41,883 bases of DNA, from contig VEMX01000047.1 of assembly GCA_009711805.1 (NCBI GenBank), positions 1 through 41,883 of the forward strand. The letters are read 5' to 3'. The translations under genes and the position numbers were made by a program. The number at the start of each line of letters is the position of its first letter. Positions within the stretch are counted from its first letter, which is position 1. The DNA comes from Balneolaceae bacterium. Lineage in GTDB: Bacteria > Bacteroidota > Rhodothermia > Balneolales > Balneolaceae. This document shows positions 12,156 to 35,197 of the stretch, piece by piece. The notes under the pieces were generated by a model. That model was not told the DNA's origin. It saw nothing but the letters and a program-made list of their open reading frames with translations, and searched no databases.

Positions 12156-13607
12156 ATGGAAGCGAAATCACCAATAGAGCAAGGAATGACTGTGTGCAAG
12201 AAAATAGCATCATTTTTGATGTTGATAATGGTTATGATGGTGCTTGGTGCAGGAAATGCAAGTGCACAGACCAAAGGAATAATTTATAAATCAGCGGAGG
12301 GAGATGGCCGGCTTATCTTAGATCCGAACGGAGACGGATATGTGTCTTCAACCACAAGCGGTTTTTCTTCTAATGATGAATCAGAGAGTGAGATTTCCTT
12401 TTTCGGTATGCCGGTTCTTACGGCAGAACCTTTAAGCGATGTGAGAACCGGGGCTAGTGGCGGGCATACCGATCTGGCTACTACCAGCTCAACTACACCC
12501 GCGGCCTATATGTACTACGATGGCACAAACCTGCTCTTTCGGGTCCGTATTGCCGATCAGTCTACCGCTTCCAAAGGATACAGTTTCTTTTTTAATACCG
12601 ACTTTGACGTATTTGGTCCTAAAGCCAGTGGGTTCACAAGTTCAAACCCGGGTTTCCAGTTCGAAATTGTACTTGAAACCGGAAAAGGAGTATCTATTTA
12701 CACCCTGAATGGGGACAATGCAACTCTGTATAAGCGTTTAACAGAAGCTGATCATTTCCAGAAATCCCTTTCTTATACCCTTACTGATGGCTCAACGGGC
12801 CATTTTTATGATTTCTATGTACCTGTTTCAGAAATTCAGGGAGCCGTAAGTGGTTTTACCGTTTCCACCGGATTCCGTGCTGCCATGGCTACAATTACAA
12901 GGGCGCAAAGTGGAATCACCGGGACGCTCTCCGATATCAACGGGGTGAACGATGATAACTATAAAAATGCTACACAGGCTTTGGTAGATATTGTCGAAGC
13001 TGCCCCCTCAACCAACCTCAATGACATAGGCTCTGGCGGAGGAGGATTTGGAGCTTCTGTGACAGATGTTCCGAGTATAGACATCCCCCTGGTAGACGGA
13101 GATACTGAGGTTAGCGGTACCAGTATTGAAGCGGACGGAACTACAATTACAGTGTATGTTGGTGGTTCTTCTGTTGGAACTGCAACAGTTTCAAGTAATA
13201 CATGGACGACAACAGTAACGGCATTATCTGCAGGGGATATAGTTACAGCTTCTGCCGATGCAACAGGTAAGGATGCCTCTGCACAGTCGGATGGGATTAC
13301 AGTATTAGCAGCCAACCAGCAGTGTACGGACGACCCCATTAACGTAGCACAGGGAGGGAATACGCTTTCAGGAACTATCACAGGCTTGCCCACCGGTTTA
13401 TCCAATTCCCATTTAACTTCCAATGTAATTATCAGGGTTTACCGGGGGGGAAATGTTTTTGTATCCACCAGCTCTTCCGATCCCGGTACCGACGGCTATG
13501 TAGGCTATAATAGTTTTGCCTACAACTCTTCAACCGGAAATTATGATTTTGAATTAGACAATGGCCAAAGCGGTAAAACGGGGCCGGGGGGGGAATCCTT
13601 ACAATGA
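12156..13607 (+). CDS. Giant surface protein, N-terminal segment (truncated by frameshift)
   Basis: The 483-residue open segment starts with a signal peptide (KKIASFLMLIMVMMVLGAG, cleavage near NASAQ). Residues about 45-285 form a beta-rich N-terminal domain (GDGRLILDPNGDGYVSSTTSGF, YMYYDGTNLLFRVRIAD, YSFFFNTDFD). A Gly-rich linker follows and then Ig-like sequence (DTEVSGTSIEADGTTITVYVGGSSVGT). The last eight or so residues after GPGG are out-of-frame and end in TGA. As written it would be exported but has no sorting domain, so it could not be displayed by T9SS. The ATG at 12186 (Met11) is a possible alternative start. It lies 20 bp after the OmpA-family gene. Confidence 0.8.
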   Translation: MEAKSPIEQGMTVCKKIASFLMLIMVMMVLGAGNASAQTKGIIYKSAEGDGRLILDPNGDGYVSSTTSGFSSNDESESEISFFGMPVLTAEPLSDVRTGASGGHTDLATTSSTTPAAYMYYDGTNLLFRVRIADQSTASKGYSFFFNTDFDVFGPKASGFTSSNPGFQFEIVLETGKGVSIYTLNGDNATLYKRLTEADHFQKSLSYTLTDGSTGHFYDFYVPVSEIQGAVSGFTVSTGFRAAMATITRAQSGITGTLSDINGVNDDNYKNATQALVDIVEAAPSTNLNDIGSGGGGFGASVTDVPSIDIPLVDGDTEVSGTSIEADGTTITVYVGGSSVGTATVSSNTWTTTVTALSAGDIVTASADATGKDASAQSDGITVLAANQQCTDDPINVAQGGNTLSGTITGLPTGLSNSHLTSNVIIRVYRGGNVFVSTSSSDPGTDGYVGYNSFAYNSSTGNYDFELDNGQSGKTGPGGESLQ

Positions 13608-16600
13608 TGAGAATTATTCCATAACAGCCCAGTACCAATCACAGTGTGAGTCGAATCCGGTTGTGGATGGTTTAACCAGTGTAGTTACTTCAGAAGCTCC
13701 CGTTATCACCTCCACAAGTCTCACGGAATCCAGTACCTCAATCAGCGGTACTTCCAATTCTTCCGGTAGTGCTACCATTTATGTATACCACGACAGAATA
13801 CAAATCGGAACAACAACAGCTGCCAGCGATGGGTCCTGGACACTTTCAGGCATTAGTTCCGGAACACTGGAGGATGACAAAGAAGTATTTGCCCGGGCTA
13901 TTGATAATATTGCCGATGCACAATTTTCAGCAAATAGCAACACGGTTATAGTAGGAGAAGGGGCACTGGAACAATCGGAACCACCGGTAATATTAGGTAG
14001 TTATCTGACTACCACTACAACTATATCTGGTACTACTGTAGAAGGACCAGGAACAATTATCAGGGTTTTGGTGAACGGTTTTACGGAAGACCAGACAACC
14101 GCTGACGCCTATGGTAACTGGGAGGTTACCGGGGTTGATTTAAGCGCAGACGGCGGAAATGATATTACAGCTACAGCCAAAGCCGAAGGAAAATCTGTGA
14201 GCGGCCCCTCCGATGCAGTAACCATTCAGACTACGGCAGGATCTGCTCCTACAATAGAAGGTGGAGCCACATCCCTTACAGAATCTGGTTTCAGCGGAGC
14301 TATTGATATCAGTGGGTCCGGAACTTTCCGTATTTATATTGATGGACAACTTGCGCTAACCACTACTTCAACTTCTGTAAGCCTTTCTACTACCTCATCT
14401 GATGGTACCAATACGCTGGCCGACTTAATCAGCGCGGGCGTTACCGTATACGCTACAGCTCAGCAATCAGGAACCACGGAAAGCGGATCTTCAAATGTAG
14501 TAACAGTTACTTCTGACCCGGTACGGTATATTTCGGTTGCTTCCATAACTCCAAATCCTGTACCCGGCGGCGGTGGCGAAGATGCAACAACAACCTTCAG
14601 AGTATTGGACGCCAGCTTTGTGAAAGATTCCAGTGTACCAATGGATATTTCATTAATTGCAGGCCAGGGTTCGTTAGGTACGGTTCCCGCTCAAACAGAT
14701 GGAGATGGTGAAATCGCAGTTCCATATACAACTGCTGAGGCGGATAATGGAGGAAGCGTAAGTATTCAGGCTGTTGATGATGATGGGTATGCCGAGAGTT
14801 ATACAGCCTCATTTAATGTTCAGGAAGCTGCTCCTGTGATTAGTAACGTTAGCTTAGGGAATGATGGATCGGATAATATTGCGTTTAGTTTTGATGCTGA
14901 TAAACAGCTGGGAAGTTCATCCGGTGATATAGCAGTAAGTATTTCAGGACCGAGTAACGGATCAGGATGGCCCAAAAGTTATAACCGGTCAAATTTTTCA
15001 GAAGCCGATAACTCCGGTACTTACACTTATACACTAACTGCAACCCAGGCTTATGATGATGGAGACGGAACCTATACAGCCACCATTAATGATGCTAAAG
15101 ATTCTTCCGGTTTAGATGGTGGTGATGGCAGTGATACGGATACTTATGTTTTAAGTACCGACACGACATCCCCGACGGTAGACATCCAGGGTGAGCCATC
15201 CATTGTCAACAGTACCTCGGCGTTCAGTGTGACGGTTGAATTTAGTGAAGATGTGAGTGGTTTTACCGTGGGTGATATTACGGTGGGCAACGGCTCGGCT
15301 GGAAATTTTGCCAGCACCGATGGCAATACGTACACCGCCGATATTACCCCGGATGGAAACGGAGACATCACTATTGATGTGGCAGCAGATGTAGCCCAGG
15401 ACGGGGCCGGCAACAACAATACGGCCGCCACTCAGGCTACCGTAACGTATGACGCTACGGCTCCGGTTCTCAGTGCTCCCAACCTTGGCAATGATGGTTC
15501 GGATAAGATTACATTTAGTTTTTCCAGCGACGAGGTATTGGGCACGGCCACGGGGGACCTGGCGATCACGGTCACCGGTCCGGGCAGCTACTCCCAGAGC
15601 TTCGACCGGGATGATTTTGATGTCAGTGGAAGCGGCCCTTATACCTATACTTTGAAGAGTGCCTCATCGGTGGCTTATGGAGATGACGGCACCTACACAG
15701 CCGCCATTGATGATGCGGTGGATGCGGCCGGTAATGACGGGGGCGATGGATCCGATACCGATACCTACTCCCTGGACACAACAGCCCCCTCGGGCTACGC
15801 GGTAGCCTGGGATACCGATCCGGTCAACAGCGCCAATGAAGGAGCGGCTGGTTTTAGCATATCCTCGGGCGAAGACGGAGCTGACTATGCCTATAGCATC
15901 TCTTCCGATGGTGGAGGAACCAATGTAACGGGATCAGGGACCATGAGCGGGACCAGCCAGGCGGTAACCGGGGTAGACGTCTCGGGTCTGAGCGATGGTA
16001 CGCTGACGGTCAGTGTTACCCTTACCGACAGTGATGGGAATGCAGGGTCGGCGGCGACCGACGAGGTAACCAAAGAGACGGCATCCCCACAAATTACCGG
16101 GTTGAGCGGGAGTGCCGGTGATGCCACATCTTCGAAGACGATCGATGAGGGTATAACGGCGGTGGGCACGATGAGTGCCGATGAGAGCGTAAGCTGGAGT
16201 ATCTCGGGAGGAGCCGATAGTGGCGACCTTGGTATAGACAGTTCCACCGGTGCGATTACCTTTAACAGTGCCCCGGACTATGAGTCTCCGGCGGACGATG
16301 ATACGGGCAACGACTATGTGATTGAAGTGACGGCCACCGACGGGGCAGGCAACACTGCCACCCAGACGGTGACGATAAATATAACCGATGTGGATGAAGT
16401 GGCACCTGTGTTCGAAAACGCTACCCCTTCTGCTACAAACGCTGATCCCGATGGTTTTGAACTGGATACAGATATAGATGAGGCGGGGACTATTTATTAT
16501 GTCGTAGTTGCCAACGGGGCCAGTGCGCCTTCAGTGAGTCAGGTGAAAGCCGGAAATGATGCTTCCGGTTCAGCGGCCACCGATGCCGGTAGTCAGGCCG

Positions 16601-19600
16601 TAAGCTCCGGTGACTTTACCCATACCTTTACGATTAACGGTCTTTCTTCTTCCACTGACTACGATGTATATGTGGTGGCTGAAGATGATGAGGACACCCC
16701 CAACGTACAGTCGTCGGTTACCAAAGTGGATGTAAGTACTACGAGTTCTGACACCATTTCACCTACCATCTCCAATGGAAGTGTAGCTTCCGATAATAGT
16801 TATATAGATGTAACCTTTAGCGAGGGCATCTATAGTGGAAGTGGGGGGAGCGGAGCGTTAACCACAGACGATTTGAGTTTGACGTTCACCCAGAATGGGG
16901 GAAGTGCGACGGCAGCCTCTATCAGTTCATTGACGACAACCGGCAGCGGATCACTCAGTGGGGGAGAAACTACGATTCGGGTGATGCTCAATATCACTGG
17001 TACACCCTCTGGGGAAGAAACGGTTGCAATCAGTCCGGCTGATGGCGCATCGGTGTATGACGGAAGCGGAAATGCCGCTTTATCGACTACATCAACAGGA
17101 AATAAAAGTTTGAATGACAAAGTACAGCCCACACTTTCAAATGTGAGTCTGAGCAACGATGGTTCGGATAATCTGTCGCTGAGTTTTGACAGTGATGAAC
17201 AGCTGGGAAGTAGTACTTCGGATATTGCCGTGAGTATTGATGGTCCGAATACAAACAATGTTTACAGTTTTAACCGGGGTGATTTTAGTGAATCCAGCAA
17301 CAGCGGAACCTATACCTACACCTTAACCACTTCGCAAGCTTATGGGGATGGGGACGGTACCTACACCGCGGCTATTGACGATGCAAAAGATGCAGCAGGC
17401 AACGATGGGGGAGATGGTACAGATACCGACAGCTACGATTTTGACGGGACTGCCCCACAAATTACCGGGTTGAGCGGGAGTGCCGGTGATGCCACATCTT
17501 CGAAGACGATCGATGAGGGTATAACGGCGGTGGGCACGATGAGTGCCGATGAGAGCGTAAGCTGGAGTATCTCGGGAGGAGCCGATAGTGGCGACCTTGG
17601 TATAGACAGTTCCACCGGTGCGATTACCTTTAACAGTGCCCCGGACTATGAGTCTCCGGCGGACGATGATACGGGCAACGACTATGTGATTGAAGTGACG
17701 GCCACCGACGGGGCAGGCAACACTGCCACCCAGACGGTGACGATAAATATAACCGATGTGGATGAAGTGGCACCGGTCTTCGAGAATGCGACCCCCTCGA
17801 TCAGTAATGCAGACTCCGATGGTTTTGATGTGGACACCGATATTGATGAGGCCGGTACCATCTATTATGTGGTGGTGGCCGATGGGGCGAGTGCCCCGAG
17901 TGTTTCCCAGGTGAAATCGGGGAATGATTCCGGTGATTCCGCGGCCCTGAGTTCAGGGAGTCAAACGGTGAGTTCGGGAGACTTTACCCATGGTTTTAGT
18001 GTGAGCGGGTTATCCTCGTCCACCGATTATGATGTATATGTGGTAGCCGAGGATGATGAAAGCACTCCGAACGTGCAATCCTCGGTAACCAAAGTGGATG
18101 CAACCACGGGTTCTCCCGCCGACACGACGTCCCCGACGGTAGACATCCAGGGTGAGCCTTCCATTGTCAACAGTACCTCGGCGTTCAGTGTGACGGTTGA
18201 ATTTAGTGAAGATGTGAGTGGTTTTACCGTGGGTGATATTACGGTGGGCAACGGCTCGGCCGGAAATTTTGCCAGCACCGATGGCAATACGTACACCGCC
18301 GATATTACCCCGGATGGAAACGGAGACATCACTATTGATGTGGCAGCAGATGTAGCCCAGGACGGGGCCGGCAACAACAATACGGCCGCCACTCAGGCTA
18401 CCGTAACGTATGACGCTACGGCTCCGGTTCTCAGTGCTCCCAACCTTGGCAATGATGGTTCGGATAAGATTACATTTAGTTTTTCCAGCGACGAGGTATT
18501 GGGCACGGCCACGGGGGACCTGGCGATCACGGTCACCGGTCCGGGCAGCTACTCCCAGAGCTTCGACCGGGATGATTTTGATGTCAGTGGAAGCGGCCCT
18601 TATACCTATACTTTGAAGAGTGCCTCATCGGTGGCTTATGGAGATGACGGCACCTACACAGCCGCCATTGATGATGCGGTGGATGCGGCCGGTAATGACG
18701 GGGGCGATGGATCCGATACCGATACCTACTCCCTGGACACAACAGCCCCCTCGGGCTACGCGGTAGCCTGGGATACCGATCCGGTCAACAGCGCCAATGA
18801 AGGAGCGGCTGGTTTTAGCATATCCTCGGGCGAAGACGGAGCTGACTATGCCTATAGCATCTCTTCCGATGGTGGAGGAACCAATGTAACGGGATCAGGG
18901 ACCATGAGCGGGACCAGCCAGGCGGTAACCGGGGTAGACGTCTCGGGTCTGAGCGATGGTACGCTGACGGTCAGTGTTACCCTTACCGACAGTGATGGGA
19001 ATGCAGGGTCGGCGGCGACCGACGAGGTAACCAAAGAGACGGCATCCCCACAAATTACCGGGTTGAGCGGGAGTGCCGGTGATGCCACATCTTCGAAGAC
19101 GATCGATGAGGGTATAACGGCGGTGGGCACGATGAGTGCCGATGAGAGCGTAAGCTGGAGTATCTCGGGAGGAGCCGATAGTGGCGACCTTGGTATAGAC
19201 AGTTCCACCGGTGCGATTACCTTTAACAGTGCCCCGGACTATGAGTCTCCGGCGGACGATGATACGGGCAACGACTATGTGATTGAAGTGACGGCCACCG
19301 ACGGGGCAGGCAACACTGCCACCCAGACGGTGACGATAAATATAACCGATGTGGATGAAGTGGCACCTGTGTTCGAAAACGCTACCCCTTCTGCTACAAA
19401 CGCTGATCCCGATGGTTTTGAACTGGATACAGATATAGATGAGGCGGGGACTATTTATTATGTCGTAGTTGCCAACGGGGCCAGTGCGCCTTCAGTGAGT
19501 CAGGTGAAAGCCGGAAATGATGCTTCCGGTTCAGCGGCCACCGATGCCGGTAGTCAGGCCGTAAGCTCCGGTGACTTTACCCATACCTTTACGATTAACG

Positions 19601-22600
19601 GTCTTTCTTCTTCCACTGACTACGATGTATATGTGGTGGCTGAAGATGATGAGGACACCCCCAACGTACAGTCGTCGGTTACCAAAGTGGATGTAAGTAC
19701 TACGAGTTCTGACACCATTTCACCTACCATCTCCAATGGAAGTGTAGCTTCCGATAATAGTTATATAGATGTAACCTTTAGCGAGGGCATCTATAGTGGA
19801 AGTGGGGGGAGCGGAGCGTTAACCACAGACGATTTGAGTTTGACGTTCACCCAGAATGGGGGAAGTGCGACGGCAGCCTCTATCAGTTCATTGACGACAA
19901 CCGGCAGCGGATCACTCAGTGGGGGAGAAACTACGATTCGGGTGATGCTCAATATCACTGGTACACCCTCTGGGGAAGAAACGGTTGCAATCAGTCCGGC
20001 TGATGGCGCATCGGTGTATGACGGAAGCGGAAATGCCGCTTTATCGACTACATCAACAGGAAATAAAAGTTTGAATGACAAAGTACAGCCCACACTTTCA
20101 AATGTGAGTCTGAGCAACGATGGTTCGGATAATCTGTCGCTGAGTTTTGACAGTGATGAACAGCTGGGAAGTAGTACTTCGGATATTGCCGTGAGTATTG
20201 ATGGTCCGAATACAAACAATGTTTACAGTTTTAACCGGGGTGATTTTAGTGAATCCAGCAACAGCGGAACCTATACCTACACCTTAACCACTTCGCAAGC
20301 TTATGGGGATGGGGACGGTACCTACACCGCGGCTATTGACGATGCAAAAGATGCAGCAGGCAACGATGGGGGAGATGGTACAGATACCGACAGCTACGAT
20401 TTTGACGGGACTGCCCCACAAATTACCGGGTTGAGCGGGAGTGCCGGTGATGCCACATCTTCGAAGACGATCGATGAGGGTATAACGGCGGTGGGCACGA
20501 TGAGTGCCGATGAGAGCGTAAGCTGGAGTATCTCGGGAGGAGCCGATAGTGGCGACCTTGGTATAGACAGTTCCACCGGTGCGATTACCTTTAACAGTGC
20601 CCCGGACTATGAGTCTCCGGCGGACGATGATACGGGCAACGACTATGTGATTGAAGTGACGGCCACCGACGGGGCAGGCAACACTGCCACCCAGACGGTG
20701 ACGATAAATATAACCGATGTGGATGAAGTGGCACCGGTGTTAAGCGTACTTAACCTGGGGAATGACGGTTCGGGAAATGTGAGTTTTAGTTTTGCAAGTG
20801 ATGAAGAGCTGGGAACTTCGACCTCCGATATTGCCGTAAGTCTGGGTGGTCCGAGTGGATACAGTCAGACTTTTGACCGGGATGATTTTACCCAAAGTGG
20901 ATCAAGTCCTTATACTTATACTCTGAAGAGTGCATCCGCTCCAGCTTATGGAGATGACGGTACCTACACGGCAACAATTAATGATGCCAAAGACGCAGCC
21001 GGCAATGACGGTGGAGATGGCTCTGATACGGATACGTATGAATTAAATAGCGTACCTACTATAAACACTTGGCCGACGGCTTCCGATATTACCTACGGGG
21101 ATGCGCTGAGCAGTTCAACCCTAAGCGGGGGATCGGCGAGTGTGGCAGGGAGTTTTGCTTTTACCACCCCGTCTGCCGTACCCGGTTCGGCCGGTACGTA
21201 TTCGGCGAGTGTGACCTTCACCCCGGACGACACGGGCAACTATTCGAATGTAACCGGCTCAGTAGATGTGACGGTGAATAAGAAAGCCCTGACCGTAACG
21301 GGAGCTTCGGCCTCTGATAAAACCTATGATAGTAACACCGATGCTTCCATCAGCGGAGCAACTTTAAGTGGGGTAGTGGGCAGCGATGATGTGTCCCTCA
21401 GCAGTTCCACCTCAGGAACCTTTGCCCAGGCCGGGGTGGGAACTGGTATTGCGGTAAGTACCTCGATGGGGCTCACCGGGGCCGATGCCGGGAATTATAG
21501 TTTGAGTCAGCCGGCGGGATTAAACGGAGACATCACGGCCAAGGAACTGACCATTGGAGGTTCCTTTACCGCCAGTGATAAAACCTATGATGGTGGTACT
21601 TCGTCTTCGGCTGCTTCCAACAGTTTGTCACTGAGTGGAGTTGAATCAGGAGACACGGTAAGTTTAGATAATATTACCCTGGCGTTTGCTTCTTCGGATG
21701 TAGCTACGGGTATTACCATAAGCATTACAGCAGCCACGATTAGCGGAACAGATGCTGCCAATTATAGTATCTCGACCGGTGGAGCCCCGACAACGACGGC
21801 GGACATTACTCCCAAAGGACTTACAGTAACGGGAGCTGTCGCCCAGGATAAAACCTATGATGGTAATACCGATGCTTCTATCAGTGGAGCAACTTTAAAT
21901 GGGGTGGTTAGCGGAGATGTGGTGTCTCTTACCAATGCTACCTCAGGAACCTTTGGCCAGGCCGGGGTGGGAACCGATATAGCCGTGAGTACCTCGATGG
22001 GGCTCACCGGGGCCGATGCCGGGAATTATAGTCTGAGTCAGCCGGCGGGCCTGAAAGCGGATATCACCACCTCTAATGTGACCGTAAGCAGTTGGCCAAC
22101 GGCTTCCGATATTACCTACGGGGATGCGCTGAGCAGTTCAACCCTAAGCGGGGGATCGGCGAGTGTGGCAGGGAGTTTTGCTTTTACCACCCCGTCTGCC
22201 GTACCCGGTTCGGCCGGTACGTATTCGGCGAGTGTGACCTTCACCCCGGACGACACGGGCAACTATTCGAATGTAACCGGCTCAGTAGATGTGACGGTGA
22301 ATAAGAAAGCCCTGACCGTAACGGGAGCTTCGGCCTCTGATAAAACCTATGATAGTAACACCGATGCTTCCATCAGCGGAGCAACTTTAAGTGGGGTAGT
22401 GGGCAGTGATGATGTGTCCCTCAGCAGTTCCACCTCAGGAACCTTTGCCCAGGCCGGGGTGGGAACCGGTATTGCGGTAAGTACCTCGATGGGCCTGAAC
22501 GGAACGGATGCCGGGAACTATACCATCAACCAGCCAGGTAGTCTGAGCGCAGACATTACTGTAAAGGCCCTGACTGTGACGGGAGCTTCGGCCTCTGATA

Positions 22601-25494
22601 AAACCTATGATAGTAACACCGATGCTTCCATCAGCGGAGCAACTTTAAGTGGGGTAGTGGGAAGCGATGATGTGTCCCTCAGCAGTTCCACCTCAGGAAC
22701 CTTTGCCCAGGCCGTGGTGGGAACCGGTATAGCCGTGAGTACCTCGATGGGGCTCACCGGGGCCGATGCCGGGAATTATAGTTTGAGTCAGCCGGCGGGA
22801 TTAAACGGAGACATCACGGCCAAGGAACTGACCATTGGAGGTTCCTTTACCGCCAGTGATAAAACCTATGATGGCAATACCACCGCTTCGATGGGAGGCA
22901 ACAGCCTCTCCCTTACAGGCGTTGAGTCCGGGGATACGGTGACTTTTGACGAGATTAGCCTGGCGTTTGCCTCTTCGGATGTAGCCAGCGGGATTACGGT
23001 GACCATTAGCGGGGCAACAATAACCGGAAGTGATTCTGGGAACTACAGCATTTCGACCGGTGGAGCCCCGACAACGACGGCGGACATTACTCCCAAAGAA
23101 CTCACGATTGCAGGTTCCTTTACAGCTAACGACAAAGCATTTGATGATAACAAATCAGCAACCATAGATCAGAATAACCTGGCTCTTATTGGTGTGGAAA
23201 CAGGCGATAATGTTACATTAAGTCCGGTAGCTGAATTTGTTGACAAGCAAGTAGGTACAAATAAGACAGTGAGTCTTGTTGGAACTACTTCAATCTCAGG
23301 GGCAGATGCGGATAACTATTCTCTTTCAATAAGTGGTGCGCCTACCACCCAGGCAGACATCTTTACAGGAGCCGTTGCAGACGGAAATTCCTCCGTTACC
23401 GCAAACCCGGCAACCCTGACCGCAGGTAATAACTCAACCGTGACTGTCACAATTAAAGACAGCTATAATAACCCGGTTGAAGGCAAGATAGAAGGGGATT
23501 TCAATTTTGCAATCAGTGGTAATGCTCAGGTGGTTTCTGGCTCTTTTTCAGAAACATCTGCTGGTGTGTATGAAATTGAGGTAACCAATACCACAGCAGA
23601 AACCATAAGTGTAACAGTAACTGCTGACGGAACGCTCCTAAGTGATAAGCCGGATATAACATTTGGAGCGGGAGCTATAAGTGCCGGTGTATCGAACGTA
23701 CAGGGAACTTCGCCGCATACAGCTGATGGAAGTGATGCTTCAACAATAACAATAGATTTGAAGGATCAATATGGGAATGTTATTAGTGGAGAGGCTGCTA
23801 ATATAGCGTTCAGTGGGTTAAGTGATGCTCAGGCAGCTTCTGTATCTGAAACCGGAACGCCCGGCACTTACCAGGCAGCAGTAACCAATACGACTGCTGA
23901 AAATATAACAGTTGTAGTAACAGCCGGTGGCACTCAACTGGATGATCAGCCTTCCATTACTTTTGAGGCAGGGCTGGCCGCCAAATTTGTGATTTCAGGA
24001 AACAGTACCCAGCTTGCAGGAGAAAGCCAGAATTTGACGATTACAGCACGGGATGCAAACGGCAACACAGCAACAGCATACTCAGGAAATAAAGGATTAA
24101 CCTTTAGCGGTTCCTCTGCATCACCCGATGGATATGTACCGGTTATTACCAATAGCAGTGGAGGTCTAACCGAGTTCAGCAAAACCATAACCATCGATTT
24201 CAGTAATGGAGTGGCAACAGTTTCTTCCGGAGCAAACGGTAGGATGATCCTCTACAATGCAGGACTATCAACTATTGGTGTCACAGATGGAACCATTAGC
24301 GAAACAGCCACGCTGGATGTAACCGTTACAGCGGGGGATGCCAACAAAATTGCATTCACAAAACAACCAACCGATGCTGACCAAAGAGAAATTATTTCTC
24401 CTGAAGTAGCAGTTGAATTACTGGACGCTTATGGAAACAAAAGCAAAGAGCAAGGAATAAATATTTCGCTGCAAGTGAATAATGGAGCTGCTCTTGGCGG
24501 AAATACATCAAAGGAGTCTGATACAAACGGTGAGGCTATTTATGATGACCTGTTTGTAGAGGAAGCCGGAATGTATAAACTCACCGCATCAGCTTCAGGG
24601 TTGAAACAAACTGAATCTGATGAGTTTAGCATCCTGGATATAGAAGCACCACTGTTAACAGTAGATGATGTATCCACCAATAACCCAACTCCGACCATTA
24701 CAGGTACAACCGACGAACCTGCCGGGAGTACGGTAACCGTAACTATAGACGGCAAAACCTATACAACCACCGTTAATGAAGATGGCAGCTGGAGTGTTGA
24801 AGTCACTGATGAATTAGAAAATAAAGAATACACGGTAACTGCCAGTATAACTGATGATTCAGGAAATACAACAGAAACTACCGGTACACTGGTAGTCAAT
24901 GCAACGGATCCTCAGCTTGTGGTAGATGATCAGAATACAACAGATACAACGCCAATTATCACCGGAAGTACAGATCAAGCTGCGGGAAGTACGGTAACTG
25001 TAATAATTGCCGGCAAAACCTATACAACCACAGTTAATGAAGATGGCAGCTGGAGTGTTGAGGTTACTGAAGAGTTGGATGATGGTGAATATATAGTAAC
25101 CGCCCGTATTACCGACGATTTTGGGAATACTACCGAAGCAACAGGGACACTATCAATAGATGCCACCAAACCAACACTAACGGTAGATAATCAGAATACC
25201 GGGAATCCAACTCCTGCCATAACAGGATCTACGGATGAGCCCGCAGGGAGTACTGTAACGGTAGTGGTAAATGGTAAAACCTATACTGCTACGGTAGGGT
25301 CGGATGGTAACTGGAGTGTAAGCCTGACGGAAACTCTTTCGGAGGGAGAGTATACGATAACAGCCACTATCACAGATAGTATGGGGAATACAACAGAAGC
25401 CACCGGTACCCTGGAAATTGTATCGTCCGGAGCAGACCGTCTTGTTATTGTAAGTGGTAATAGTCAGACGCAACAGGTAACTACCCAGTTGTAG
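13561..25494 (+). CDS. Giant surface protein, central segment (repeat region)
   Basis: The 3,977-codon frame carries most of the protein. Its first codons (before about 13594) are out-of-frame relative to the upstream segment, so its ATG at 13561 is not a natural start. It contains Ig-like domains to about 14830; the 2,620-bp repeat pair (15158-17777, 18119-20738) with modules such as VTVEFSEDVSGFTVGDITVG, ITGLSGSAGDATSSKTIDEG and TIYYVVV; MBG/YDG repeats with KTYDG and KTYDSNTDA signatures; Big-1/invasin-like domains (23370-24640); and three Ig domains of 87 residues (24657-25430). It ends at TAG 25492-25494. With no signal peptide of its own it is not a stand-alone gene. Very acidic composition suggests Ca2+ binding and salt tolerance. 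Confidence 0.8.
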   Translation: MAKAVKRGRGGNPYNDENYSITAQYQSQCESNPVVDGLTSVVTSEAPVITSTSLTESSTSISGTSNSSGSATIYVYHDRIQIGTTTAASDGSWTLSGISSGTLEDDKEVFARAIDNIADAQFSANSNTVIVGEGALEQSEPPVILGSYLTTTTTISGTTVEGPGTIIRVLVNGFTEDQTTADAYGNWEVTGVDLSADGGNDITATAKAEGKSVSGPSDAVTIQTTAGSAPTIEGGATSLTESGFSGAIDISGSGTFRIYIDGQLALTTTSTSVSLSTTSSDGTNTLADLISAGVTVYATAQQSGTTESGSSNVVTVTSDPVRYISVASITPNPVPGGGGEDATTTFRVLDASFVKDSSVPMDISLIAGQGSLGTVPAQTDGDGEIAVPYTTAEADNGGSVSIQAVDDDGYAESYTASFNVQEAAPVISNVSLGNDGSDNIAFSFDADKQLGSSSGDIAVSISGPSNGSGWPKSYNRSNFSEADNSGTYTYTLTATQAYDDGDGTYTATINDAKDSSGLDGGDGSDTDTYVLSTDTTSPTVDIQGEPSIVNSTSAFSVTVEFSEDVSGFTVGDITVGNGSAGNFASTDGNTYTADITPDGNGDITIDVAADVAQDGAGNNNTAATQATVTYDATAPVLSAPNLGNDGSDKITFSFSSDEVLGTATGDLAITVTGPGSYSQSFDRDDFDVSGSGPYTYTLKSASSVAYGDDGTYTAAIDDAVDAAGNDGGDGSDTDTYSLDTTAPSGYAVAWDTDPVNSANEGAAGFSISSGEDGADYAYSISSDGGGTNVTGSGTMSGTSQAVTGVDVSGLSDGTLTVSVTLTDSDGNAGSAATDEVTKETASPQITGLSGSAGDATSSKTIDEGITAVGTMSADESVSWSISGGADSGDLGIDSSTGAITFNSAPDYESPADDDTGNDYVIEVTATDGAGNTATQTVTINITDVDEVAPVFENATPSATNADPDGFELDTDIDEAGTIYYVVVANGASAPSVSQVKAGNDASGSAATDAGSQAVSSGDFTHTFTINGLSSSTDYDVYVVAEDDEDTPNVQSSVTKVDVSTTSSDTISPTISNGSVASDNSYIDVTFSEGIYSGSGGSGALTTDDLSLTFTQNGGSATAASISSLTTTGSGSLSGGETTIRVMLNITGTPSGEETVAISPADGASVYDGSGNAALSTTSTGNKSLNDKVQPTLSNVSLSNDGSDNLSLSFDSDEQLGSSTSDIAVSIDGPNTNNVYSFNRGDFSESSNSGTYTYTLTTSQAYGDGDGTYTAAIDDAKDAAGNDGGDGTDTDSYDFDGTAPQITGLSGSAGDATSSKTIDEGITAVGTMSADESVSWSISGGADSGDLGIDSSTGAITFNSAPDYESPADDDTGNDYVIEVTATDGAGNTATQTVTINITDVDEVAPVFENATPSISNADSDGFDVDTDIDEAGTIYYVVVADGASAPSVSQVKSGNDSGDSAALSSGSQTVSSGDFTHGFSVSGLSSSTDYDVYVVAEDDESTPNVQSSVTKVDATTGSPADTTSPTVDIQGEPSIVNSTSAFSVTVEFSEDVSGFTVGDITVGNGSAGNFASTDGNTYTADITPDGNGDITIDVAADVAQDGAGNNNTAATQATVTYDATAPVLSAPNLGNDGSDKITFSFSSDEVLGTATGDLAITVTGPGSYSQSFDRDDFDVSGSGPYTYTLKSASSVAYGDDGTYTAAIDDAVDAAGNDGGDGSDTDTYSLDTTAPSGYAVAWDTDPVNSANEGAAGFSISSGEDGADYAYSISSDGGGTNVTGSGTMSGTSQAVTGVDVSGLSDGTLTVSVTLTDSDGNAGSAATDEVTKETASPQITGLSGSAGDATSSKTIDEGITAVGTMSADESVSWSISGGADSGDLGIDSSTGAITFNSAPDYESPADDDTGNDYVIEVTATDGAGNTATQTVTINITDVDEVAPVFENATPSATNADPDGFELDTDIDEAGTIYYVVVANGASAPSVSQVKAGNDASGSAATDAGSQAVSSGDFTHTFTINGLSSSTDYDVYVVAEDDEDTPNVQSSVTKVDVSTTSSDTISPTISNGSVASDNSYIDVTFSEGIYSGSGGSGALTTDDLSLTFTQNGGSATAASISSLTTTGSGSLSGGETTIRVMLNITGTPSGEETVAISPADGASVYDGSGNAALSTTSTGNKSLNDKVQPTLSNVSLSNDGSDNLSLSFDSDEQLGSSTSDIAVSIDGPNTNNVYSFNRGDFSESSNSGTYTYTLTTSQAYGDGDGTYTAAIDDAKDAAGNDGGDGTDTDSYDFDGTAPQITGLSGSAGDATSSKTIDEGITAVGTMSADESVSWSISGGADSGDLGIDSSTGAITFNSAPDYESPADDDTGNDYVIEVTATDGAGNTATQTVTINITDVDEVAPVLSVLNLGNDGSGNVSFSFASDEELGTSTSDIAVSLGGPSGYSQTFDRDDFTQSGSSPYTYTLKSASAPAYGDDGTYTATINDAKDAAGNDGGDGSDTDTYELNSVPTINTWPTASDITYGDALSSSTLSGGSASVAGSFAFTTPSAVPGSAGTYSASVTFTPDDTGNYSNVTGSVDVTVNKKALTVTGASASDKTYDSNTDASISGATLSGVVGSDDVSLSSSTSGTFAQAGVGTGIAVSTSMGLTGADAGNYSLSQPAGLNGDITAKELTIGGSFTASDKTYDGGTSSSAASNSLSLSGVESGDTVSLDNITLAFASSDVATGITISITAATISGTDAANYSISTGGAPTTTADITPKGLTVTGAVAQDKTYDGNTDASISGATLNGVVSGDVVSLTNATSGTFGQAGVGTDIAVSTSMGLTGADAGNYSLSQPAGLKADITTSNVTVSSWPTASDITYGDALSSSTLSGGSASVAGSFAFTTPSAVPGSAGTYSASVTFTPDDTGNYSNVTGSVDVTVNKKALTVTGASASDKTYDSNTDASISGATLSGVVGSDDVSLSSSTSGTFAQAGVGTGIAVSTSMGLNGTDAGNYTINQPGSLSADITVKALTVTGASASDKTYDSNTDASISGATLSGVVGSDDVSLSSSTSGTFAQAVVGTGIAVSTSMGLTGADAGNYSLSQPAGLNGDITAKELTIGGSFTASDKTYDGNTTASMGGNSLSLTGVESGDTVTFDEISLAFASSDVASGITVTISGATITGSDSGNYSISTGGAPTTTADITPKELTIAGSFTANDKAFDDNKSATIDQNNLALIGVETGDNVTLSPVAEFVDKQVGTNKTVSLVGTTSISGADADNYSLSISGAPTTQADIFTGAVADGNSSVTANPATLTAGNNSTVTVTIKDSYNNPVEGKIEGDFNFAISGNAQVVSGSFSETSAGVYEIEVTNTTAETISVTVTADGTLLSDKPDITFGAGAISAGVSNVQGTSPHTADGSDASTITIDLKDQYGNVISGEAANIAFSGLSDAQAASVSETGTPGTYQAAVTNTTAENITVVVTAGGTQLDDQPSITFEAGLAAKFVISGNSTQLAGESQNLTITARDANGNTATAYSGNKGLTFSGSSASPDGYVPVITNSSGGLTEFSKTITIDFSNGVATVSSGANGRMILYNAGLSTIGVTDGTISETATLDVTVTAGDANKIAFTKQPTDADQREIISPEVAVELLDAYGNKSKEQGINISLQVNNGAALGGNTSKESDTNGEAIYDDLFVEEAGMYKLTASASGLKQTESDEFSILDIEAPLLTVDDVSTNNPTPTITGTTDEPAGSTVTVTIDGKTYTTTVNEDGSWSVEVTDELENKEYTVTASITDDSGNTTETTGTLVVNATDPQLVVDDQNTTDTTPIITGSTDQAAGSTVTVIIAGKTYTTTVNEDGSWSVEVTEELDDGEYIVTARITDDFGNTTEATGTLSIDATKPTLTVDNQNTGNPTPAITGSTDEPAGSTVTVVVNGKTYTATVGSDGNWSVSLTETLSEGEYTITATITDSMGNTTEATGTLEIVSSGADRLVIVSGNSQTQQVTTQL
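13586..13593 (+). other. Run of eight G at the frameshift point
   Basis: Seven G would give ACG GGG CCG GGG GGG AAT CCT (TGPGGNP) and one continuous frame. Eight G put translation into a short alternative frame ending at 13607. Homopolymer G runs are prone to slippage in cells and to sequencing error. Confidence 0.85.
16087..16406 (+). repeat. 320-bp cadherin-like module, copy 1 of 4
   Basis: Identical by eye to 17455-17774, 19048-19367 and 20416-20735. It encodes about 107 residues: ITGLSGSAGDATSSKTIDEG, then LGIDSSTGAITFNSAPDYE and YVIEVTATDGAGNTATQTVT, a cadherin/CADG-like fold with DxD-type calcium-binding residues. Confidence 0.9.
17455..17774 (+). repeat. 320-bp cadherin-like module, copy 2 of 4
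   Basis: Same sequence as 16087-16406, 1,368 bp (456 codons) downstream. It is preceded here by a different module (ending DSYDFDGTAP). Confidence 0.9.
19048..19367 (+). repeat. 320-bp cadherin-like module, copy 3 of 4
   Basis: The copy-1 module carried in the second 2,620-bp repeat. Confidence 0.9.
20416..20735 (+). repeat. 320-bp cadherin-like module, copy 4 of 4
   Basis: The copy-2 module carried in the second 2,620-bp repeat. It is followed by a different Ig-like unit (VLSVLNLGNDGSGN) instead of APVFENATPS. Confidence 0.9.
21070..21470 (+). repeat. MBG/YDG direct repeat, copy 1
   Basis: It matches 22093-22493 with about three substitutions, offset 1,023 bp (341 codons). It encodes an MBG-like unit (ASDITYGDALSSSTLSGG) and part of a YDG unit (ASDKTYDSNTDASISGATLSG). 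A third related YDG copy lies at about 22569-22800. Confidence 0.85.
22093..22493 (+). repeat. MBG/YDG direct repeat, copy 2
   Basis: Second copy of 21070-21470. After it the sequence diverges (GLNGTDAGNYTINQPG against GLTGADAGNYSLSQPAG). Confidence 0.85.
24657..25440 (+). repeat. Three tandem 87-residue Ig-like domains
   Basis: Units begin near 24661, 24922 and 25183, exactly 261 bp apart. Each carries TxDxPAGSTVTV, GKTYTTTVNEDGSWSVEV and YTVTASITDDSGNTTE-like segments. The DNA has diverged more than in the 2,620-bp repeats, so this duplication is older. Confidence 0.85.
25492..25494 (+). other. In-frame TAG within the giant gene
   Basis: The codons before (GGT AAT AGT CAG ... CAG TTG) and after (GAT TCA TTA ATT GCC GGA) read as one protein in one frame. 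The simplest origin is CAG to TAG, giving QLQDSLIAGVFDED. Confidence 0.85.
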
Positions 25495-32022: not shown

Positions 32023-33321
32023 TCAGCGCAGCTTAGTTGTATCTATGCGGGATGGAGTTTTTTCGGCTGAAATAATCCCCCGGCTGGCACCGGCAATAGC
32101 CTGAATGGTTCGCCTGACATGCGCAATATTAATGGTCGAGAATTCATCTTTTACCGTGTGATAGTCATTGTCGACTTCAATAGGGGTAGAGCTTATAGTG
32201 TGGGCCGGTATTCCCAACCGGGCAAAAGGGATGTTATCGGACCAATAAAATAATCGATGTTTATTATATGGGTCAGGAGAAAATTTATATATGGAATCAG
32301 GAGAGGCATCTTGCATAATTTGGCCTAAATCAGATTTTTCAAATCCTGTTATCCAGGCAGATTTGCTGCCATCCAGGGCCGATTTCCCAATCATTGCAAT
32401 ATTTATCATAGCCACGAAGCGTTCAGGGTCAATTTGATCTGCAAAATATTGTGATCCATATTCTCCAAGTTCTTCAGCAGTAAAGGCTATAAAATAAATA
32501 GTGCGTTCAGGAGTGGGTAAGGCATTATAATATCGTGCCAGCTCAATAACAGCGGTGGTGCCGGATGCATTATCATTAGCCCCATTAGCAATAGAATCAC
32601 GTCTTACACTTTGAGTGGTACCTATATGGTCGTAATGAGCTGAGAAAATGACAATTTCATCTTTTCTCTTTCCTTCTATCATTCCAGCCACATTATTCAA
32701 TTCATGTTTCTTAATGTTGCTTTCCACAAATACACGAAAGGAGTGGATAGGTTTATCACCTAAAATAAAAACATCAGCTGGGGTATTCCCCACTTTAAAT
32801 GTACGGCTAGGTCGCGAGAAGTAATTTCTGTACCTATAAAAAGTTTTCTTATGTGCGGGATCAATAAGTACGATAGACTGGCGATTGTCTTTCCTGTACT
32901 TTAAAAAAGTGTCTCTGAATTTATCTCGAGAAGTGATTTTTAAAACAGCTACATCATCATTCCACCGTATAGAATCGGTATCAATTAATGGAAAGTATTT
33001 TTTGGAGGAGATTTCTCTGTTGTTAATAGAAATGAAAGCAGAATCAACTGAGATCGAGTAGAGTGTGAAATTTTGTCTGAAGCTTCCGAGTTCAGGCAAG
33101 GGTGATAAGCCTATAGAATTAAATTCTGCACTAATGAAATCTGCGGCTTTTTCGATGTCAGGAGACAGGGAATAGCGACCTTTCATTTCATCGGAACTGA
33201 GCGTTTTAAGAACCCTGACAGTACTTTCCTCAGTTATCCTGGGTTCTTTCTGATTGGTGCATTGAGCCACCGCAGTTAGTACCAATACAGATATAAAAAT
33301 GTAAGAAAGTTTTTTTTTCAT
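32023..33321 (-). CDS. M28-family zinc peptidase, lipoprotein
   Basis: The 432-residue protein has a lipoprotein signal (MKKKLSYIFISVLVLTAVAQC, lipidation at C21). Residues about 30-210 are an N-terminal part often seen in M28 enzymes with an inserted region. The catalytic domain follows: SAHYDHIGT, ANGANDNASGTTAV, FTAEELGEYG, INIAMIG and NDYHTVKDEF provide the expected His, Asp, Glu, Asp/Asn-region and His positions of the di-zinc site, although INIAMIG has Ala where Asp is usual. If that reading is right, one metal ligand differs from the family norm. It stands alone on the reverse strand and differs strongly from the M28 protein at 30327. Confidence 0.9.
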   Translation of the reverse strand: MKKKLSYIFISVLVLTAVAQCTNQKEPRITEESTVRVLKTLSSDEMKGRYSLSPDIEKAADFISAEFNSIGLSPLPELGSFRQNFTLYSISVDSAFISINNREISSKKYFPLIDTDSIRWNDDVAVLKITSRDKFRDTFLKYRKDNRQSIVLIDPAHKKTFYRYRNYFSRPSRTFKVGNTPADVFILGDKPIHSFRVFVESNIKKHELNNVAGMIEGKRKDEIVIFSAHYDHIGTTQSVRRDSIANGANDNASGTTAVIELARYYNALPTPERTIYFIAFTAEELGEYGSQYFADQIDPERFVAMINIAMIGKSALDGSKSAWITGFEKSDLGQIMQDASPDSIYKFSPDPYNKHRLFYWSDNIPFARLGIPAHTISSTPIEVDNDYHTVKDEFSTINIAHVRRTIQAIAGASRGIISAEKTPSRIDTTKLR

Positions 33322-33923
33322 GAACCAAGCTGCCCGGGAATATGGATGAATTGCAACTTATTAAACATCTGCATCAACGTTTGAAAAAAAATGCTATAAA
33401 ACCGATAACTAACAAATGAGTTCCGATAAAAAATCCGTTTGTATCTGAAGTTCAAGGTGTTTATTGAACATGGCTAATCAAAGAAAAGAGAGGAAAGAAA
33501 GCAAGTATTTGCCAGATTCATTTGCATGAACCAAACGCATTGGACGGTTAGTCCGCATATCTCACCACATTTTTTGGGATAATTACACTTTATTGTATGA
33601 CAATAAGTTACGAGCGTATTTTTGGTTGTTCATTTCTATCCCCTGTTTCAGATTGTGTTCTCGTCAAAAATCACCGTGGGCTGCGTTGGAACTGTAACCG
33701 ACTTGGTCACATACAGTTTGTAGCTCACTGCGTCGGTTTTGCTCTGCCTTGCCCACGGCAATTTTTGACTTCGTGAATGCGGGTTAACAGTTGTTTTGAA
33801 CAACAAATCATTCGCAAAAAACTACTCGTCTGTAATTCACAGGAAGCCGAGTCTTTGGAAGGGTTAGAGGAATTATTGGTATACATTGACCATGTTTCAA
33901 TCAATTAAAGCGTTAACCTATAC
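33322..33923. other. 600-bp intergenic region with a nested palindrome
   Basis: No gene is convincing. Between 33663 and 33769 there is a long nested inverted repeat; the flanks are AT-rich. The forward open frame at 33886-34338 is antisense to the reductase gene. Confidence 0.55.
33663..33769. repeat. Nested inverted-repeat element
   Basis: Outer arms of 19 bases (GTCAAAAATCACCGTGGGC at 33663-33681 against 33751-33769) pair at 17 of 19. Inside, AACCGAC (33696-33702) pairs with GTCGGTT (33732-33738), and within that CAGT (33714-33717) with ACTG (33727-33730). All arms share one centre, so about 107 bases can fold as one long hairpin. No target-site duplication is obvious. Confidence 0.7.
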
Positions 33924-35111
33924 TTATGATATACTCAGGCTCAGCTGTTGTTGTGTCATGCGGTCAACCAAGGCATCTTCAAAAGCTAAAACAGGAGATA
34001 GAAACCCATACCGATCATTCAGACTGGGGTTCAGGGCAAGGCACAATGCTGATTCACAGAGAAAGAAAACCGTAGATTTATTTCCCGGATCTCCCGGATA
34101 TGACATGGTTAACTGCTTGGTTAATCCCGTCTCGTCACTGGCAATAGCCCGCATTTTAAAATATCCATTCTCTATGGCTTCTTCTGAAGGGCCTTCACCT
34201 GGAGCGGGCATAATGTTTTGGAGGATAGTGCGAAACCATTTTTTGGGTCCGAGTTTGGTAATGGCCAGCAAGATAAGGGCGGTAATAAAGAATGAAACCG
34301 GATTGTATTTCTTGCCCAGTGAAGAAAACTCCTGGTAGCTCATTCTTTCGGCATAAGGTTTTCCTTGCTTGCGCATTTCTGCAGCAGTGTTGTATACAAC
34401 TTTTGAATTGATGGGGCTCATAATGAAAGGCGTTACCCAGCGGTTAATATCACTGCTGAAGCCAAAGTAATTTTGAAGGGGATCTTTTTCTATTTGCTGT
34501 GAGGCATCTGTTATTAACAGGGCGGGGTTATTCATTTGTTTATATTCACCCGATTCAAACTTATTCATCATGGTAGCAATGGTTCCCCCGTTAAAACCAC
34601 CCCGAATGGAGTAGTATGCTCTGATGGTTAACTTGTCGGGCTTGGCAAACTCACGGCTCAAAAGAAAGGCAGCTATATCTGCCGGAACACTGTCGAAGCC
34701 TGAAAATGGTATCAGTTTACATTTGTTTTCAATAGCTGTTTGCTGATACTTCTCTTTCATCTTGCGGATGAATCCCACTTCCCCGGTTATGTCGAGATAA
34801 TGGGTGCCGTGTTCGCTACACGATGCAATGAGCTGTTCTCCATACAGAGAGAAGGGTCCTACCGTAGTTATGATAATGCGGCTTTGCTGTACGAGTTGAT
34901 CAACCTGTTGGCGGTTAAGCGTGTCCACCGTAAACAAACGATCACCGGATATATTGAGTTGGCCTGCAATAGATTCAAGTTTGGAAGAATTACGGGCGGC
35001 TAGTCCCCATCTTAAAGAGTCTGGAGCGTGCTGATGTAGGTAACGGGCAGCCCGTTGCCCTGTAAAACCGGTTGCACCAACAAGGATGATATCAAAAGAT
35101 TGTTTTGGCAA
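33924..35111 (-). CDS. Saccharopine dehydrogenase-like NADP-binding oxidoreductase
   Basis: The protein of about 395 residues has an N-terminal Rossmann fold (FDIILVGATGFTGQRAARYL, LAARNSSKLESI) of the saccharopine-dehydrogenase/trans-acting enoyl-reductase-like group. Members act on varied substrates including lipids, so no reaction can be assigned. Central segments VGPFSLYGEQLIASC, HYLDITGEVGFI and LIPFSGFDSVPAD are characteristic of this subfamily. I place the start at TTG 35111: the ATG at 35174 lies inside the terminator hairpin of the upstream csp gene and would add 21 residues without homology. No Shine-Dalgarno sequence is seen for either start. It follows csp copy 2 on the same strand. 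Confidence 0.85.
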   Translation of the reverse strand: MPKQSFDIILVGATGFTGQRAARYLHQHAPDSLRWGLAARNSSKLESIAGQLNISGDRLFTVDTLNRQQVDQLVQQSRIIITTVGPFSLYGEQLIASCSEHGTHYLDITGEVGFIRKMKEKYQQTAIENKCKLIPFSGFDSVPADIAAFLLSREFAKPDKLTIRAYYSIRGGFNGGTIATMMNKFESGEYKQMNNPALLITDASQQIEKDPLQNYFGFSSDINRWVTPFIMSPINSKVVYNTAAEMRKQGKPYAERMSYQEFSSLGKKYNPVSFFITALILLAITKLGPKKWFRTILQNIMPAPGEGPSEEAIENGYFKMRAIASDETGLTKQLTMSYPGDPGNKSTVFFLCESALCLALNPSLNDRYGFLSPVLAFEDALVDRMTQQQLSLSIS

Positions 35112-35157
35112 AAGGTGAAAAAAATGGGTTAAAGCATTCCGGAGGTATTTACTGTAT

Positions 35158-35197
35158 AAAAAAAAGCCTCGCATGAAGTTAATTCATACGAGGCCAT
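35158..35197 (-). terminator. Terminator of the second cold-shock gene
   Basis: On the reverse strand GCCTCGTATGAA pairs with TTCATGCGAGGC (one G-U-like mismatch) around a short AT loop, followed by eight T. It overlaps the apparent ATG of the next gene at 35174. Confidence 0.88.

Follow-up and report, generated by a model that had tools for sequence, protein, structure and literature searches.

Positions 33663-33769 of a contig from a Balneolaceae bacterium (VEMX01000047.1, analysed here as a window of 41,883 nt covering positions 1 to 41,883) contain a long nested palindrome, raising the question of what kind of element it is and what keeps its structure. The first-pass annotation had described three nested repeats of 19, 7 and 4 bp in an otherwise empty gap of about 600 bp, and had offered a small mobile element (MITE-like), a structured RNA or a DNA cruciform as explanations. 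The palindrome was confirmed by the positions of its arms and by its folding stability. The outer arms (33663-33681 and 33751-33769) are 19 nt long, as described, and 89% complementary, and the 7-bp and 4-bp pieces both fall within one inner pair (33696-33715 and 33719-33738). Positions 33640-33800 fold at -52.8 kcal/mol, compared with -41 (sd 3.89) for shuffled sequences (z -3.03), and 0 of 200 shuffles were as stable. The gap between listed ORFs spans 33322-33923, in agreement with the annotation, and is bounded by two genes on the minus strand, one for an M28-peptidase-like protein (32023-33321) and one for a protein with a saccharopine-dehydrogenase NADP-binding domain (33924-35174). The absence of a T-run 3' of the hairpin also held, and an intrinsic terminator was ruled out because the sequence after 33769 has no such run. 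An Rfam structured RNA was likewise ruled out, as no family scored above its gathering score for the hairpin module described below. Elsewhere in the window, a single 3977-aa ORF (13561-25494) contains antisense ORFs that recur every ~2961 bases, with tandem repeats of 258 and 261 bases close to its end; its product has the appearance of a very large repeat protein containing an extensive internal duplication.

The palindrome exists as reported, but its coordinates are too narrow to describe the repeated unit. A search of the same genome with 33600-33840, a check that the annotation had proposed, retrieved two copies, one at 92% on contig C55 and one partial on contig C43, and the C55 copy places the true extent of the window element at 33552-33783. 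This 232-bp element, of which the palindrome is only the inner part, has no long ORF, has IS1380-type ends (CCGCATATCTCACC...GTGA..ATGCGGG) and carries a 4-bp YTAR target duplication. On its left side, the target-site duplication TTAG (33548-33551), read directly and differing by one base from that on the right, is followed by a plus-strand terminal inverted repeat of IS1380 type, TCCGCATATCTCACC (33552-33566; other copies start with CCC), and the same ends are found on complete IS1380 elements. The left internal region (33567-33662, plus strand), which also lacks a long ORF, is ~90% alike among three copies, and leads into the palindrome, read on the plus strand. The right terminal inverted repeat, GTGAATGCGGG (33773-33783, minus strand), is 3 nt shorter than the GTGAGATATGCGGG of the C55 copy and precedes the right target-site duplication TTAA (33784-33787), again read directly.

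Three copies of this subfamily are present in the genome, each with different flanks. The window copy is flanked by TTAG on the left and TTAA on the right, the C55 copy, which begins CCCGCATATCTCACC and finishes GTGAGATATGCGGG, by CTAA on both sides, and the C43 copy by TTAG on both sides. The C43 copy (L006 1241-1610) still has the ends and outermost arms together with the left half; in place of the module, its interior is different, longer and hairpin-rich. An exact scan for the core pattern returned a match in the window's own genome only (1 of 296). The genomes searched contained no relative from the window's own genus. The suggestion of a small mobile element is supported by several copies with different flanks, by terminal inverted repeats and by target duplications, and the outcome that would have refuted it, a single copy without conservation, was not met, with further copies and a conserved structure found. 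It is near certain that the window element is a non-coding MITE, and taken alone the 232-bp element is an ordinary one.

The search for transposases with similar ends, also proposed in the first-pass annotation, found IS1380 transposases between matching ends in other genomes. An exact scan for TARCCCGCATATCTCACCA matched at least 119 stretches from many phyla, and we counted facing pairs of ends in 80 loci among the matches listed. These loci contained 54 facing pairs, 52 of them spaced 55-330 bp apart and two spaced 1784 bp apart. Identical 4-nt flanks, most commonly CTAG, were present in 30 of the 54 pairs among the matches listed, a count to be read with the proviso that the scan pattern itself requires TAR on one side. 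A 1784-bp element with CCCGCATATSTCACCA ends codes for a 475-aa IS1380 transposase, and a genome of the window's own family contains a complete IS1380 element whose ends, CCTGCATTTCTCACA, are related to those of the window element and are flanked by CTAG duplications. No match to PF13701 (IS1380 transposase) above cut-off was obtained in the window's own genome, a draft of 99 contigs, which suggests, as far as such a draft can show, that the copies are orphaned. We infer that an IS1380 transposase acting in trans on the ends of the element moved the window MITE; the enzyme was not found in the assembly.

Like IS1380-derived MITEs, the window element is non-coding, is present in many copies, and has a 4-bp duplication and ends like those of complete IS1380 elements, but it differs from them in that no partner transposase was found in its own genome. 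It also differs from IS1380 systems by an internal two-loop hairpin that is absent from the complete IS1380 loci read, all four transposase loci (L176, L177, L062 and L091) being without the module. R2, a covariance model of the module described below, matched 3 of the 52 MITE-size pairs among the listed loci, and the majority of foreign MITEs of IS1380 type have a different hairpin. Among the loci listed (L039-L118), IS1380-type MITEs with long internal hairpins of other kinds are frequent in Gammaproteobacteria, Acidobacteriota, Thioalkalivibrio and others, most often at a size of 176 bp.

The hairpin module occupies 33675-33758 (plus strand) and consists of three stems and two asymmetric internal loops, TGCGTT/CGCCTTG and TCA/CTCC. 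All four loop strands of the window copy read on the plus strand. Its loop A is made up of TGCGTT (33682-33687) and TGCCTTG (33745-33751; nearly all relatives have CGCCTTG), and its loop B of TCA (33707-33709) and CTC (33724-33726), as aligned in a three-hairpin alignment, A3, and in a 16-sequence hairpin alignment, A5, that includes no ERIC sequence. A first covariance model, R1, was made from A3 and matched 32 of the 128 genomes of the window's order, including further places in the window's own genome. The 45 R1 matches listed have both internal loops in common, some with one base changed, with the exception of L237, and their stems differ. R1 also scores ~41 bits on the window's wrong strand, so that an R1 score by itself does not count as evidence for the loops. 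The second model, R2, was built from A5 and shows no such wrong-strand match.

A5 shows little or no variation in TGCGTT, CGCCTTG and parts of TCA and CTC. With the named structure, 85.7% of the cells of A5 are paired, compared with 66.1% in shuffles, and both sides have changed at 22 of 29 pairs, which 0 of 500 shuffles equalled; controls in which the structure was slid along the alignment paired at most 42.9%. Because the A5 hairpins were gathered via R1, which rewards pairing, this covariation was partly selected for. R2 detects the window (58.9 bits, E 4.2e-15), the C55 copy (77.9 bits) and 26 of 30 loci of a sister family, and did not detect the module in the C43 copy. Over 79 listed loci rich in other hairpin MITEs it gave 7 matches at E up to 1 (one of the 80 listed loci, the 183-base L041, was left out of this run), and R2 is no general hairpin finder. 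The covariation check suggested by the annotation found stems that vary by compensatory changes around constant loops, and we have shown that the window hairpin is a member of a recurrent structural module.

The sister family was reached through the further R1 matches in the window's own genome and has related ends, CCCGAATTATTCACG / GGTGAATAATCCGGG. With up to 3 mismatches allowed, GGTGAATAATCCGGGTTAA occurs at 97 forward and 98 reverse places in this genome and its reversed control at 0, suggesting ~100 copies if each has two ends. We examined 62 distinct copies in 70 loci. Exactly 228 bp was the length of 45 of the 62, and 53 had identical target duplications, TTAA in 44 of those. Eight copies of 83-105 bp (L268, L273, L278, L292, L296, L302, L316 and L287) have no hairpin, with junctions at short direct repeats and more than one junction type, and the hairpin is thus not needed for persistence. 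We estimate a probability of roughly 75% that the overall explanation is correct, namely a MITE core, its sister family, a recurrent module and movement in trans by an IS1380 enzyme.

The distribution of the module is patchy, as expected of mobile elements. In the phylum of the gammaproteobacterial MAG G333, R2 matched 55 of 200 genomes (E up to 1e-3), and in the window's own phylum 33 of 198 genomes and 7 of 102 genera had a match, with 26 of the 33 genomes in a single family, f24. Copy numbers are lower bounds (at most 22 candidates were scored per genome), and module sequences were read directly at 30 and 40 proteobacterial places and at 15 others. Several proteobacterial modules lie in ~146-bp units with TAGGGCSTGTT ends. 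A longer element with the matching end, cut by the end of its contig, starts with an IS5-family transposase (NF033580 with 132.1 bits, cut-off 110; PF13340). The module recurs, then, in MITEs with either IS1380-type or IS5-type ends in two phyla, and the presence of both kinds of ends around the same module makes it common to MITEs of at least two transposase families. None of the complete elements that could be read carries it. The IS5-type MITEs of Pseudomonadota share the hairpin module with the window element, and differ from it in their ends, their TA flanks and their IS5-family transposase partner. Viral contigs scanned for IS5-type ends yielded 10 stretches and 0 facing pairs 600-2600 bp apart. 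In many of the proteobacterial copies (L392-L431) the module is bordered by an additional conserved outer pair, CTGCGCGTCG / CTAGCTCGC or variants of it, perhaps representing a third internal loop. In family f24 (L437-L451), the module lies within units with ends reading GGGCACCTCTAAAAA or similar, which may be a further type of MITE.

Six proteobacterial genomes (L339, L341, L342, L343, L346 and L351) have the module at one operon place between ThiS-family and NIL-domain genes, always in the sense orientation; Pfam was run on one of the six loci, L343. Among these copies, 93.1% of cells are paired (84.7% in shuffles), both sides have changed at 10 of 29 pairs (5.7 in shuffles), one-side-only changes number 0 and the loops are constant. 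Further pair types numbered 10, lower than the 13.3 of the shuffles. The module in the ThiS-NIL operon is a candidate for a domesticated copy.

REP and REPIN sequences are imperfect hairpins with conserved non-pairing positions and many intergenic copies, features in which the module resembles them. In contrast to these, the module is longer, is enclosed by DDE-type ends and has no association with Y1_Tnp genes. A Y1/RAYT partner was not supported, as Y1_Tnp genes are present in 24 of 30 genomes with the hairpin compared with 25 of 34 others, and no Y1 transposase was found in the hairpin-rich genomes G456, G468 and G508.

ERIC sequences have been used in strain fingerprinting for decades, and we know of no established origin or mobilising partner for them. 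For comparison, ERIC sequences were fetched from E. coli and local alignments were scored against dinucleotide shuffles. None of 2000 shuffles reached the score of the hairpin of genome G001 (48) or that of the C55 hairpin (43); the window copy is a weak match (score 32, reached by 43 of 2000 shuffles), and comparison on the reverse strand gave background levels. R2, although built without ERIC, located it at its position in 5 of 6 loci tested. On two E. coli stretches ERIC was the best match, with identical scores (17.3 bits, E 0.013; next match 14.5), and the ERIC copies of Pantoea, Rahnella and Klebsiella scored 33.1, 28.6 and 24.0 bits with no other match in those 62 kb. In the R2 alignments, TGCGT/CGCCTT and TCA/CTCC of ERIC fall on the loops of the model. 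The module meets the ERIC criterion of a conserved core with both internal loops, and shares with ERIC, IRU and RU-1 the order of blocks, both internal loops and the strand. Searching E. coli genomes by blastn gave no match, and plasmids gave short chance matches only. A separate Rfam comparison matched E. coli ERIC (L175 263-386) to V_AS5 (Vibrio antisense RNA AS5) with 46.9 bits, where the gathering score is 96, and the V_AS5 family may be an ERIC copy.

According to the cited sources, ERIC is a 127-bp element found in enterobacteria and Vibrio, has 7-bp TIRs with TA termini (PMC2229807, PMC10969869) and forms a single long stem-loop (PMC10969869, PMC2267715, PMC2229807). ERIC is a free unit, whereas the module of the window forms part of a 232-bp element that has IS1380-type ends and belongs to another phylum. 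We rejected filing the window element itself as ERIC, since it has CCGCATATCTCACC ends and YTAR duplications and not TATACTC-type ends with a TA duplication. Kinship of the module with ERIC is likely. It may be that the resemblance arose by convergence only, between unrelated sequences, and R1 did miss ERIC, E. coli ERIC scores low with R2, the Y. frederiksenii ERIC was missed by R2 altogether, and the ends of ERIC are different in the available part of PMC2229807. However, the blocks of ERIC and the module are collinear and strand-specific, with the reverse strand at background, and R2 scored Pantoea ERIC at 33.1 bits with nothing else matched across 62 kb. We consider convergence doubtful. 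A wider proposal would make ERIC a branch of a family of DNA hairpins that spans phyla. MITEs from two or more unrelated transposase families would then carry the module because both of its loops are recognised in folded DNA by a conserved bacterial factor, and some copies would have been domesticated in operons. This proposal is tentative, and we think it somewhat more likely to fail than to hold. If the ERIC core is shared with IS1380- and IS5-type MITEs in other phyla, these MITEs would provide ERIC with relatives whose mobilising enzymes can be identified, and the invariant loops would offer concrete bait for a factor that reads them. A keyword search of open-licence papers found no report of a cross-phylum ERIC-type hairpin, which is weak evidence of absence, and the portions of PMC10969869, PMC2267715 and PMC2229807 available to us contain no link of ERIC to IS1380- or IS5-type MITEs or to other phyla.

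The two other suggestions of the first-pass annotation, a structured RNA and a DNA cruciform, are compatible with a MITE; the idea of a structure stood, in that it is conserved across elements, and its low G-U share favours DNA over RNA. Were the constraint acting on RNA, G-U should be tolerated more than other mismatches. The G-T share of non-Watson-Crick cells is 0.13 in A5, 0.17 in A6 and 0.00 in A7, where 2 in 12 is expected by chance; G-U is no commoner than chance among the mismatches, which favours pairing as DNA, and we infer that the folded strand that is recognised is more likely DNA than RNA. The module would act as a folded DNA strand, either a cruciform or a lagging-strand hairpin, with its arms kept complementary by palindrome correction, selection or both and its loops kept because a widely shared factor would recognise the folded form (no loop-binding factor is known). 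Inferred as a whole, this mechanism falls a little short of even odds. If the module instead acts as RNA, transcribed hairpins would alter the stability or processing of mRNAs, making insertions useful or harmless. The operon hairpin of the six genomes, always sense, speaks for that account, as does the orientation-dependent effect of Yersinia ERIC on transcript stability (PMC2229807, from the part of the paper available). An earlier set of 30 proteobacterial places also had 14 sense and 4 antisense copies, though some of its loci are shared and some of its genes were miscalled (on the wrong strand at L341, L342 and L351). Against this, no clear strand bias was observed in either larger set: of the 51 sister copies compared with genes, 10 were sense, 13 antisense, 24 convergent, 3 divergent and 1 at an edge, and of 40 proteobacterial copies 11 were sense, 5 antisense, 17 convergent and 7 divergent, with genes called by ORF length only. 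A simple strand-specific mRNA element was rejected on these counts. G-U pairs are not favoured over other mismatches, and the module has no matching Rfam family; the weak match of ERIC to V_AS5 stays under that family's gathering score. Action as RNA is, in our judgement, unlikely.

Template-switch correction of quasi-palindromes could maintain arms without selection, and the module might have no function at all, being an old palindrome that hitch-hikes in MITEs with its arms complementary by such correction alone. Changes on both sides of the arms with hardly any G-U intermediates are what correction would give, the hairpin has been lost in the eight short sister copies, and copies are mainly found between convergent genes, positions at which an insertion is least damaging. 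Correction would, however, erase asymmetric loops, so the loops need another cause, and yet they are the most constant part of the module across phyla and ends. We find a functionless module improbable, and prefer the reading in which the loops are recognised in folded DNA. In the 51 sister copies the regions differ mildly, with no correction for shared descent, and loops (0.0080 substitutions per site and copy) and stems (0.0108) have changed less than the left region (0.0174).
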